Positions 54,288-58,821 of a stretch of 64,000 nucleotides of DNA are shown piece after piece. The stretch spans positions 72,481-136,480 of the forward strand of contig JANXEN010000001.1 of the NCBI GenBank assembly GCA_025058345.1, given 5' to 3'. This DNA comes from Sulfolobales archaeon (GTDB taxonomy: Archaea; Thermoproteota; Thermoprotei_A; Sulfolobales; NBVN01). Position 1 is the stretch's first letter. Each line of letters begins with the position of its first letter. The notes beneath the pieces were generated by a model. That model was not told where the DNA came from. It did not search any database and was given only the letters and a program-made list of their open reading frames with translations. Both the position numbers and the translations under genes were made by a program.

Positions 54288-55133
54288 CTACGAGATGTAC
54301 TGAAACAATGAGATCTTGGTTAATATAAGTGAATGCACCTTATTAAAATCTAAGCCTATATGCTCGGGAATACCATAAACATTGACGACATCCCCTAGAG
54401 CTTCAAGGTTGTAACGATTCACCAACTCCGAAGGATTTACTTCAGAAAATGCTGTAGGTAAGTACAAACCAGAGCTTTTAGAACCCCTACAAACCCTTAT
54501 AAGTAGGTAGCTGCTTGATTTAATTTCTTTTAATTTATTTACGACTTCGAATATCTGCCTATTCGAAAAAAGCCTAAGTAAGAATTCTATGTAGGGCTTC
54601 TTACTTAAGTTCCGACCCTCATCAATGGCTTTAAAAGTCAGAAGTGATGCGAGGAGGAGTTGTTTATCAGATATTATGAGAGTTGACGGCAATATCTGCG
54701 TGATGCAGTCCTCAATCTGAAACTTATCTAAGTCTCTCACCAGCTTTAACGCATCATCGTAACTTACCTCATAGATTGATAAGACTACCTTACCTAACTC
54801 ACCACGTAAATTACTCCACACTTCCTTAACATCAGGGACGTATGAACCGCCATGACTTATAGGTATAAACGTAAGTTTATCACCGTCCTTAACCACATAA
54901 TCGTAACCGTTAACAACCATGAAGTCAACACCGTTAATGAAGACGATGTAGGAAGTGTTTAGCGTTCCATCACTGCCTATAGCTGAAGACATCTTAGGAT
55001 ATACTTTATGCAAATAAATTAGTAGGTCTCTCAAATTACAGTTATTTAAACCCTCTATAGAGACCTCAACACTATTTAAACCTAATTCACGTCGTAAAAC
55101 ACCTAAAAACTCGAGTACAACCCTCAAAATCAC
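54288..55133 (-). CDS. Urm1-like ubiquitin fold fused to a Cgi121 domain
   Basis: 281 residues. Residues 1-96 are a beta-grasp of the MoaD/Urm1 type: RVVLEFLGVLRRELG, FINGVDF, VVKDGDKLTFIPISHGG. HGG at 94-96 equals the C-terminal end of Urm1 but is here followed by more chain. Residues ~110-260 look like Cgi121, the KEOPS cofactor-binding subunit (TLIISDKQLLLASLLTFKAI, GRNLSKKPYIEFLLRLFSNRQI). Cgi121 helps KEOPS make t6A and binds tRNA; Urm1 activates sulphur for tRNA thiolation or conjugates to proteins. GTG start overlaps eS17's stop, so expressed with the ribosomal gene. Confidence 0.82.
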   Translation of the reverse strand: MILRVVLEFLGVLRRELGLNSVEVSIEGLNNCNLRDLLIYLHKVYPKMSSAIGSDGTLNTSYIVFINGVDFMVVNGYDYVVKDGDKLTFIPISHGGSYVPDVKEVWSNLRGELGKVVLSIYEVSYDDALKLVRDLDKFQIEDCITQILPSTLIISDKQLLLASLLTFKAIDEGRNLSKKPYIEFLLRLFSNRQIFEVVNKLKEIKSSSYLLIRVCRGSKSSGLYLPTAFSEVNPSELVNRYNLEALGDVVNVYGIPEHIGLDFNKVHSLILTKISLFQYIS

Positions 55134-55354
55134 TGACCCTGAGTTTCTGCAGTACCTGCTGTGCTCTCCAGCTTCATGTTAGCAAGACGTGTCAGGTAAC
55201 CAGCTATTTGGTTCCTTAACTTCTTAGACTTAACGTACACGTTACTCTTAACTAACTCCTTATTCGAATTAAAATCTGTAGTAACTTTATCTTGGAGTTG
55301 TTCAAATAGCTTCTCAGCAGTTCTTTTTACAGCTGATGTCCTTACCTTCCCCAC
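55130..55354 (-). CDS. rps17e: ribosomal protein eS17
   Basis: 74 residues from GTG 55354. The family core starts GKVRTSAVKRTAEKLFE, and SKKLRNQIAGYLTRL is diagnostic. A longer reading from 55384 would begin only five bases after the TATA box (RC of cttaaatat, 55388-55396) and is not favoured; GTG 55354 is about 10 bases after the predicted transcript start. Overlaps the Urm1-Cgi121 gene by four bases. Confidence 0.9.
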   Translation of the reverse strand: MGKVRTSAVKRTAEKLFEQLQDKVTTDFNSNKELVKSNVYVKSKKLRNQIAGYLTRLANMKLESTAGTAETQGQ

Positions 55355-55486: not shown

Positions 55487-57148
55487 ATGAGTCAGAGTGG
55501 TCAAGCTGTAGGAGCTATTGGTCCTACTGGTATACCTGTTCTAATACTTAAGGAAGGCAGTAGCAGGACAACCGGTGCAGATGCTTTAAGGGCTAACATG
55601 ATGGCTGCTGTAACCATTGCGGAGATGTTGAGGACTACTTACGGTCCTAGAGGTATGGATAAGATGTTGGTCGATACTCTAGGTGATGTAACGATAACTA
55701 ATGATGGTGCAACAATATTGGATAAGATGGATGTTCAGCACCCAGCAGCTAAGATGTTGGTTCAGATAGCTAAGGGTCAGGATGATGAGGTTGGAGACGG
55801 CACTAAAACAGCTGTTATATTCGCAGGTGAGTTGCTCAAGAGTGCTGCGGAATTACTGACTAAGGATGTACATCCAACAATCATAATTAACGGGTATAAG
55901 AAGGCCTTAGAAGACGCTGTTAGCTACGCAAATAAGATTGCTAAGCCTGTAAGCATAAGCGATGAGGATTTCCTAGCGCGTGCCGCCTCTACAGCTCTAA
56001 CTAGTAAGGCAGTGCATGGAGTTAGAGATACTTTCGCGAGAGTCGCTGTTAGGGCCGTTAAGCAGGTTGCTGAGTTAAGGGGTGATAAATGGTACGTCGA
56101 CCTCGATAACATACAGATAATTAAGAAACATGGCGCTTCATTAGCTGATTCGCAGTTAGTTTATGGTGTAGTCCTAGATAAGGAAGTAGTACACCCAGGT
56201 ATGCCTAAGAGAGTTGAGAAAGCTAAAATCGCACTAATTGACGCACCCCTAGAGATCGAAAAACCTGAAATAGATGCTGAGATAAGGATAAGCGACCCAC
56301 TTCAGATGAGGAGGTTTATTGAGGAGAAGGAAAACATCCTTAAGGACCTAGTCGATAAGTTAGTTGCTGTTGGGGCTAACGTAGTTGTCTGCCAGAAAGG
56401 CATCGATGACGTCGCACAACACTTCCTAGCAAAGAAGGGAATACTCGCCGTAAGGAGGGTTAAGAGATCCGATATGGAGAAACTAGAGAGAGCGACTGGA
56501 GGAAGGATAGTAAGTAACATAGAAGACCTTACTGAGAAGGACTTAGGATACGCCGAGCTAGTAGAGGAGAGGAAGATCGGTGAGGATAAGATGGTATTTA
56601 TTGAGGGCACTAAGAATCCGAGAGCGGTAAGCATAGTGATAAGAGGAGGTTTAGAAAGAGTTGTTGATGAGGCTGAAAGGTCGTTTAGGGATGCTTTATG
56701 CGTAGTAGCTGATGTAATTAAGTTACCTCTAATAACTTATGGCGGTGGCGCATTCGAAATGGAGGTAGCCTCATATATAAGGGACTTAGCGACAAAGATT
56801 GGTGGTAAGGAGCAATTAGCGGTTGAGGCCTTCGCTAAAGCCCTTGAGGGTGTTGTGGTAGCGTTAATTGAGAATGCCGGTTTAGACCCAGTAGAATATA
56901 TCATGAAGCTTAGAGCATCGCATAAAAAAGAAGGAGGGTATAAGTACGGTGTGAACGTATTCACAGGCGAGATAACTGATATGAGTGAGTTAGGTGTTAT
57001 AGAGCCCCTAGCAGTTAAAGTCAACGCATTGAAGGCAGGTACGGAAGCTGCAGCAATGATCTTAAGGATAGATGACGTAATAGCAGCTGCGAGAAGTAAG
57101 GACGTAGGTAAGAAACCTGGGGAACCTGGTAAGAAAGAGGAAGAGTAG
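55487..57148 (+). CDS. thsA: thermosome (group II chaperonin) subunit
   Basis: 553 residues, normal. ATP-site motifs [22 protein letters not shown] and [14 protein letters not shown]; near the C-terminus [13 protein letters not shown]. It folds proteins in an ATP-driven double ring. Only one subunit gene is in the window; others may exist. The tail is [11 protein letters not shown], acidic-basic rather than GGM-type. Confidence 0.97.
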
Positions 57149-57204: not shown

Positions 57205-57226
57205 GCCTAACTTACTAGGCATTTTT
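57205..57226. terminator. bidirectional hairpin terminator
   Basis: GCCTA (57205-57209), loop ACTTAC, TAGGC (57216-57220), then ATTTTT. It is 57 bases after the thermosome stop and ends at the truD stop, so it can serve the plus strand; on the minus strand it lies just after truD. Confidence 0.55.
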
Positions 57227-58455
57227 CAATACGCGGTGCCCTTAAAAAGCTCTCTAAGCAGTATTGAAGCGTAGCACCCCCTTATTAACATAAACTCCAT
57301 CCAAACACCGTCTGTTACGAAGTTTAGGTTTAAATCTTTAACTTTGAAGGTGGATTCCCTAACATAGCTCCTACAGTTGATGTTTAAATCTCTAACTAGG
57401 AAGTGCTGCTGCTCTACCCCCTCAGCATTCATAACCTCACGCACGAATGACTCACAAATACCGTCACGTAAAGCCATATTAGTGCCGGGAACGATTAGCG
57501 TCTCACAGGTATTGCTAACACTTTCCACTCCACCTAAATGTCTTAATGCTTTGCTTAAAGCCTTATTAAATAGGTAGGATTGGTAAGCCTCTACGTAGAA
57601 ATTAAGAATTTCTATAGGTAAGGAATTAATAGCCTTAAGGGGGTCTCCATACATCATCATCGCCCTGCAGACAATGCGTTCAATCCAGTAATCGCTTGAA
57701 AATAGCTTATATGCCTTCCTAAAATTACCTGATTCGAATTCCTCCCTAGCTCTGATAACACTCTCACTCTCCAATACATGAGGAGCCCCCGCGATAAGCC
57801 TAGTAGCTTCATCCCAAGCCCTCCTTACGATTGCCTTCCCGACTAGATGGGTGATCGGTCGAATAGTTCCGAATCTTTGATAGCCGTAGTAATTCGGTAG
57901 CATCATCGACTTAAGCAAGTCCTCAACGCCCCTTAACCTCTCCATAACCACGTTTTGAGGCGCTATAAAGTTAAGAAACACGTTAAACAGGTTGCCAAGT
58001 AAGTAACCACTCCTAACAGGGTAGTGGCTACTTCTGTAGAAGCATAACCTCAGAGGTCCTAATGAGTAACTAGCCCTTATAAGCCCATCTGAATTCCTTA
58101 AGTTATTAGTGTTTAGTGAGATAAATTGGCATGAATAACTGTCACTATCCTTCAATCCAGCATATCCTATATCTGCTTTAAAGAACTTCTTAAGTAGTTG
58201 GATGGCGTAGAAGGTATCAACCCCTTCCTTACACAGTACGTAGTGTACGTACTTGCTGGTGAGCTTTTCAGCTACGTCGCCTTCAAAACATATGTTGAAG
58301 GAGGCTTTAACACCATCTAAAGAAACTTCGAAAACCCTAAAGGTGTTTGGCGACTTCCTAAACTCTAAAACATCACCTAGATTAAGTCCTTCATAAACGT
58401 AGTAATCCATACCCAACAATTTATCTATAGTGGGTGCTTCAATCACTGAAATCAC
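57226..58455 (-). CDS. truD: tRNA pseudouridine synthase TruD
   Basis: 409 residues, the archaeal type. It makes pseudouridine 13 in tRNA. The catalytic Asp is in YAGLKDSDSYSCQFIS (near 105), and NYYGYQRFGTIRPITHLVGKAIV is the second signature. ATG start; its start is directly next to the stop of pth2 (58456). Confidence 0.94.
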   Translation of the reverse strand: MISVIEAPTIDKLLGMDYYVYEGLNLGDVLEFRKSPNTFRVFEVSLDGVKASFNICFEGDVAEKLTSKYVHYVLCKEGVDTFYAIQLLKKFFKADIGYAGLKDSDSYSCQFISLNTNNLRNSDGLIRASYSLGPLRLCFYRSSHYPVRSGYLLGNLFNVFLNFIAPQNVVMERLRGVEDLLKSMMLPNYYGYQRFGTIRPITHLVGKAIVRRAWDEATRLIAGAPHVLESESVIRAREEFESGNFRKAYKLFSSDYWIERIVCRAMMMYGDPLKAINSLPIEILNFYVEAYQSYLFNKALSKALRHLGGVESVSNTCETLIVPGTNMALRDGICESFVREVMNAEGVEQQHFLVRDLNINCRSYVRESTFKVKDLNLNFVTDGVWMEFMLIRGCYASILLRELFKGTAY

Positions 58456-58821
58456 TTAAAGGAGCTTAAATCCCTTCGAAACTTTATCCAGGATGTTAGA
58501 GGGTGCAGGACCTACACCTAACGTAGTCAATGTGTTAGGAGGTAACTCAGTCCTCCCTGCATCATATATTAGAGATGTAGGCAGCCCTAACTTACTGAAT
58601 TCCTCGTAAGCCCTTAATAAATCCGATTCTGATGCACATGCTAGAACGACCTTCTTCTGACCTTGCTCAACCCATAGGTATACCCACTCAGGCTTAGTTC
58701 TCAAAACCTTCAGCACTGAATCAACTGCAGCATGAGCTACTTGAGCGGCTAACTTACCCTTACTCATGCGTAGGTCTTTCCTCACAATAATTACTTGCTT
58801 GAATTCCTCCACTACGTTCAT
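58456..58821 (-). CDS. pth2: peptidyl-tRNA hydrolase Pth2
   Basis: 121 residues. It frees tRNA from stalled peptidyl-tRNA. Conserved VRKDLRMSKGKLAAQVAHAA at the N-terminus and DAGRTELPPNTLTTLGVGPA near the C-terminus. ATG start; directly before truD. Confidence 0.95.
   Translation of the reverse strand: MNVVEEFKQVIIVRKDLRMSKGKLAAQVAHAAVDSVLKVLRTKPEWVYLWVEQGQKKVVLACASESDLLRAYEEFSKLGLPTSLIYDAGRTELPPNTLTTLGVGPAPSNILDKVSKGFKLL

Follow-up and report, generated by a model that had tools for sequence, protein, structure and literature searches.

In a 64,000 nt stretch of DNA from a Sulfolobales archaeon (hereafter the window), we identified a gene that joins a Urm1-type ubiquitin-like protein (Ubl) to Cgi121, a subunit of the tRNA-modifying KEOPS complex. 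Its product is probably a co-translated linear precursor that would be cut after an internal HGG motif by a JAMM protease, yielding mature Urm1 and Cgi121; both the cleavage and the enzyme are inferred from comparative sequence evidence and from characterized precursors of similar design. Comparison with about 150 related genomes suggests that, in this hot-spring archaeon, a dedicated protease separates the Ubl from the tRNA-modification subunit. An earlier note on the same DNA had recognized the two domains, the internal HGG, the overlap with the gene for ribosomal protein eS17 and the need for cleavage, all of which our analysis bears out; its emphasis on a union of two tRNA-modification systems did not survive the comparison. 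The locus contains the following features.

54288..55133, minus strand: Ubl(Urm1)–Cgi121 fusion gene, an ORF of 281 aa with a GTG start.
54846..55133, minus strand: Urm1/ThiS-type ubiquitin fold, residues 1–96 (PF09138, PF02597, Urm1/SAMP1 PDB matches).
54846..54854, minus strand: HGG, residues 94–96, with a predicted cut after G96 (invariance across extended Ubls).
54825..54857, minus strand: flexible junction, residues 93–103 (AlphaFold model, pLDDT <50).
54291..54788, minus strand: Cgi121 domain, approximately residues 116–281 (NF011465, profile matches to solved Cgi121s).
55130..55354, minus strand: ribosomal protein eS17, likely GTG start at 55354 (NF002242, 2.7e-24).
55487..57148, plus strand: thermosome subunit, a divergent neighbour in conserved context.

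The eS17 gene is the first of the unit and overlaps the fusion gene by 4 bp (GTGA, 55130–55133); this adjacency is syntenic in nearly all relatives, and the thermosome neighbourhood has already been described in PMC2948915. Homologues with the two domains as separate genes, which the earlier note had coupled with an assembly artefact as grounds for doubting the fusion, do exist among the relatives, but the same fusion recurs in two related MAGs (63% and 51% identity) and an assembly or frame artefact is therefore ruled out. A contig search with the single fusion protein as query gave no match. Internal re-initiation of Cgi121 at an in-frame GTG at residue 106 (V) was considered and set aside, a well-placed Shine-Dalgarno sequence not being seen by eye. 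Other translation genes lie near the locus: TruD (PF01142; window 57226-58821, minus strand) is preceded by a peptidyl-tRNA-hydrolase-like ORF recognized by eye.

The N-terminal half of the protein matches Pfam Urm1 over residues 8–96 (PF09138, E=1.5e-8 for the 98 aa alone, passing the cut-off) and ThiS (PF02597, 1e-4), and its top PDB match is a Urm1 structure. For the C-terminal half, the assignment to Cgi121 would be called weak from the single sequence and firm with a family profile. The single sequence scores 4e-9 and 36.5 bits against the NCBIfam Cgi121 model NF011465, below the curated cut-off of 40, and 0.004 against Pfam CGI-121, also below cut-off, with the matches to Cgi121 models starting at residue 122; a profile of 20 syntenic relatives, by comparison, matched the solved Cgi121 proteins of P. 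furiosus (6.6e-12) and M. jannaschii (4e-9), and human TPRKB (2e-7). In an AlphaFold model of the fusion, built with ten fused relatives (mean pLDDT 81), the HGG and junction form one unstructured segment at residues 93–103, and the two halves separately match Cgi121 structures (7szc, 4ww5, 7kjt; Foldseek 3.7e-7 to 1e-5) and SAMP1/Urm1 structures (3po0, 2ax5, 4wwm). By an inferred correspondence of numbering, K178, Q193 and I194 of the fusion align with exact spacing to K59, Q74 and I75, the tRNA CCA-binding residues of Cgi121 from T. kodakarensis (Thermococcus). The Gly-Gly of the Urm1-type domain is internal in the encoded chain and would become a C-terminal end only if cleaved, which is the point on which the earlier note had insisted for activation by an E1 enzyme.

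Conservation around this motif was assessed in 54 extended Ubls, that is, Ubls with residues after HGG (37 from the Sulfolobales order and 17 thaumarchaeal-type fusions). These sequences were extracted via the HGG motif, and the HGG count by itself is therefore circular, but among extended operon Ubls typed by HMM end none (0) lacked HGG. Full invariance is confined to H, G, G and D70, against a mean column conservation of 43%. The residue immediately after HGG, mostly serine, is 43% conserved, and the following residues about 20%. A cleavage site would be expected to look like this, with an invariant HGG and variable residues behind it.

Among 147 relatives searched, the named ones being Sulfolobales and Desulfurococcales MAGs, the S17e-linked Ubl was typed by its C terminus in 82 genomes. 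It ends at HGG in 45 and is extended in 37, of which ten have it fused to Cgi121, 14 to a phosphoribosyltransferase (PRTase) and 13 carry tails after HGG, including R, SI, DI and KE. The Cgi121 fusions occur in genera g1 and g4, in g7 and in one g14 genome of another family, and the comparison indicates at least three fusion clades in the Sulfolobales order, interleaved with separate-gene relatives and new for the order. Fused Ubls often have a tailed Ubl as their closest relative: one (G006) lies beside g1 and g4, and another (G062) comes from the genus that also contains the fused G033. The second type of fusion is found in family f5 (14 genomes), where a Ubl with internal HGG is joined to a xanthine/hypoxanthine-type PRTase.

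Ubl–PRTase fusion loci of f5: L049:1214-2062, minus strand; L050:1379-2209, plus strand; L074–L085.

In the literature searched, no paper brought together Urm1, phosphoribosyltransferase, archaea and fusion. Families f3, f7, f8 and f10 share the gene order S17e–Ubl–PRTase–Cgi121, in which the PRTase is a gene of its own and the Ubl ends at HGG; in two f5 genomes Cgi121 is still detected downstream of the Ubl–PRTase fusion; and at loci without the PRTase the Ubl abuts Cgi121 or is fused to it. From this order, every fusion joins the Ubl to a gene found directly downstream of it in relatives. The proposal that the chain unites two tRNA-modification systems is thus poorly matched by a Ubl that is instead fused to a PRTase where that gene comes next, and the fusion is a caution against inferring functional partnership, because the Ubl seems just to have joined whichever gene came next.

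Several other details of the operon emerged from the survey. In genus g5 (L012, L015, L016; MAGs 59–76% complete) a Ubl was not found between S17e and Cgi121, and a JAB match was also absent. In unfused relatives (L011, L018, L020–L022 and others) the ATG of Cgi121, in a different frame, often lies within the CATGG that encodes the HG of the Ubl. Stop-codon readthrough was considered for relatives with an in-frame TAG between Ubl and Cgi121 (L014, L017, L019, L024) and rejected, others having TAA, TGA or another frame.

The earlier note had suggested looking for a protease cut after GG and for a partner E1 enzyme; genes for JAB (G000:C51:11270), the candidate protease, and for a ThiF/E1-like enzyme are present in the same genome. 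When the same 147 genomes were searched for JAB (Prok-JAB, PF14464, over cut-off), it was present in 37/37 with an extended Ubl vs 8/45 with a Ubl stopping at HGG (Fisher 1e-15), genome counts that overstate the independence of the evidence, since the independent contrasts are few. By genus, the numbers with and without JAB were 16/0 for extended and 2/19 for HGG-stop Ubls (1e-8); calls of absence depend on incomplete MAGs, and the extended class has zero absences. A tree built from S17e, Ubl and thermosome fragments (short sequences, giving modest support) contained seven independent contrasts in Ubl extension, of which four were concordant with gain or loss of JAB, none was discordant and the remaining three were uninformative, both members being JAB-positive. 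In the wider phylum all 17/17 fused genomes examined are JAB-positive, as are 278/397 overall, and the thaumarchaeal agreement is weak evidence because JAB is common at that level. E, HxH and D are preserved in the JAB sequences from 25 genomes; the JAB of the present genome has E, HSH and D, with a loop one residue short of the metal-binding JAMM motif EXnHS/THX7SXXD as given in PMC300881. Most f1 JABs share this shorter loop, a point against the proposed role.

Cleavage by some other protease, with the JAB correlation arising merely from phylogeny or from MoaD–MoaE fusion, would explain the same pattern. This reading accepts the cleavage and questions the enzyme alone, so that confidence in it overlaps with confidence in the precursor. 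Only four contrasts are informative, and JAB also tracks MoaD–MoaE fusion (PF02391 search); JAB has other plausible substrates in these genomes, MoaD–MoaE included. Nevertheless, MoaD–MoaE fusion is insufficient as the sole reason for JAB. The association persists in every MoaE stratum, with JAB present/absent in 29/0 extended vs 4/10 HGG-stop genomes where MoaD–MoaE is fused, 4/0 vs 3/18 where MoaE is separate and 4/0 vs 1/9 where MoaE was not detected; moreover, 32 genomes have a fused MoaD–MoaE and no JAB over cut-off, whereas none has an extended Urm1 without JAB. We consider a different protease quite unlikely. The present genome itself encodes a MoaD–MoaE fusion with an internal SGG (L107:1092-1817, minus strand), another likely JAMM substrate.

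The chain might alternatively stay intact, with the Ubl built permanently into Cgi121 to bring Urm1-pathway or proteasome partners to KEOPS or to exert control over it, thereby physically joining two tRNA-modification systems. Such a role would suit the repeated joining of the two domains in distant lineages, their shared nature as tRNA-modification factors and the conserved synteny. It would leave the invariant HGG without evident use, and it sits badly with the free variation of the residues behind HGG, with the fusion of the same Ubl to a PRTase in another family, with the tracking of Ubl extension by JAB and with short tails that would need equal trimming; on balance the comparative evidence favours a precursor that is separated again, and a permanently joined protein seems unlikely. 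It is very improbable that the fused Ubl is a relict whose work has passed to another Ubl encoded on its own (for example G000:C33:208504), leaving Cgi121 as the only working part. The genome does have further genes for Ubls, and the product of one stops precisely at GG, but H, G, G and D70 would be expected to be lost from a relict and are invariant across the 54 extended Ubls, and the GG-ending paralogue is of another type (PPAAGG).

On the precedent of HvJAMM1 (see below), a precursor cut after G96 is the most economical reading. Under this model, eS17 and the Ubl–Cgi121 chain would be expressed from one overlapping transcription unit, and the JAB/JAMM metalloprotease of the same genome would cut after HGG within the flexible junction. 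The released Urm1, with its C-terminal Gly-Gly, could then be adenylated by the ThiF/E1-like enzyme (4.5e-77) for sulphur transfer or protein tagging, between which sequence alone cannot tell, and the released Cgi121 would join KEOPS. The genome also encodes Pcc1, a PP-loop ATPase from the superfamily to which TtuA/NcsA belong, and a free-standing Ubl ending in GG (L105); Kae1 (PF00814) was not detected in this 82.6% complete assembly, probably because some 17% is missing. Further Ubl-like ORFs of the genome have residues after GG (L106:881-1198, minus strand; L108:911-1210, plus strand; FGGCPLCAAS, FGGSLSLTHHFI).

Such fusions may have originated when the Ubl stop codon was lost and translation read into the gene lying downstream, in lineages whose existing JAMM protease made C-terminal extensions harmless. 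That JAMM lets Urm1 lose its stop and fuse to any downstream gene, be it Cgi121 or a purine-type PRTase, with short tails as intermediates, may be a general rule in the Sulfolobales, and we give this an even chance of being correct. In eukaryotic ubiquitin–ribosomal protein fusions, ubiquitin is freed by cutting after GG, and the rule, if true, would provide their archaeal counterpart. It predicts that extended Urm1 does not occur without JAMM and names an explicit enzyme–substrate pair, so that what looked like a curiosity becomes a testable claim about the evolution and maturation of ubiquitin-like precursors outside eukaryotes.

The architecture itself is a new occurrence of a known one. 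Makarova & Koonin (2010) reported Ubl fused to Cgi121 in every member of the Thaumarchaeota available at the time, in some of them apparently sharing a transcript with S17 (PMC2948915), and the architecture is therefore not new. The thaumarchaeal fusions have the same domains, order and eS17 neighbour, with an internal HGG in 17 such relatives; the present genome, in contrast, lies in the Sulfolobales order and has close relatives with separate genes, so the Sulfolobales fusions look like separate events. The parts of PMC2948915 that treat the fusion suggest that SAMPylation regulates KEOPS or that the functions are coordinated, without JAMM processing, and take Cgi121 as absent from Sulfolobales and Desulfurococcales. 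In Sulfolobaceae-like loci (f11; L043:1683-2063, L044:1391-1759 and others), the 123–148 aa ORF after Urm1 is a shortened Cgi121 (hhalign 96.8%, 2.8e-10), probably arCOG07188; Cgi121 of S. islandicus has already been studied (PMC10989989), and Sulfolobaceae Cgi121 is accordingly not claimed here as a new discovery. The Urm1 of S. acidocaldarius, S. solfataricus and S. islandicus (PMC4569737, PMC12625751; PDB 4wwm) shares the HGG terminus and the neighbourhood S17–Urm1–small protein–thermosome outlined for Sulfolobales in PMC2948915, but is a free-standing protein ending at HGG; JAB over cut-off was not found in the f11 genomes of our sample.

The closest mechanistic precedents are Ubl–MoaE fusions. 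In SAMP1–MoaE, HvJAMM1 cleaves precisely behind the terminal Gly in vitro, with in vivo support and activation (PMC4443979), and DRJAMM cuts MoaD–MoaE (PMC8832034). These fusions resemble ours in having an N-terminal ubiquitin fold with GG joined to a downstream partner and a co-occurring JAMM, and differ in that the present Ubl is of Urm1 type with HGG, is joined to a KEOPS subunit or, in f5, to a PRTase, and its cleavage is predicted. The Caldiarchaeum ubiquitin precursor, as its processing by CsRpn11 is outlined in PMC6043591, belongs to the ubiquitin family proper and has a different partner or tail, but there too the modifier is released by a cut after GG.
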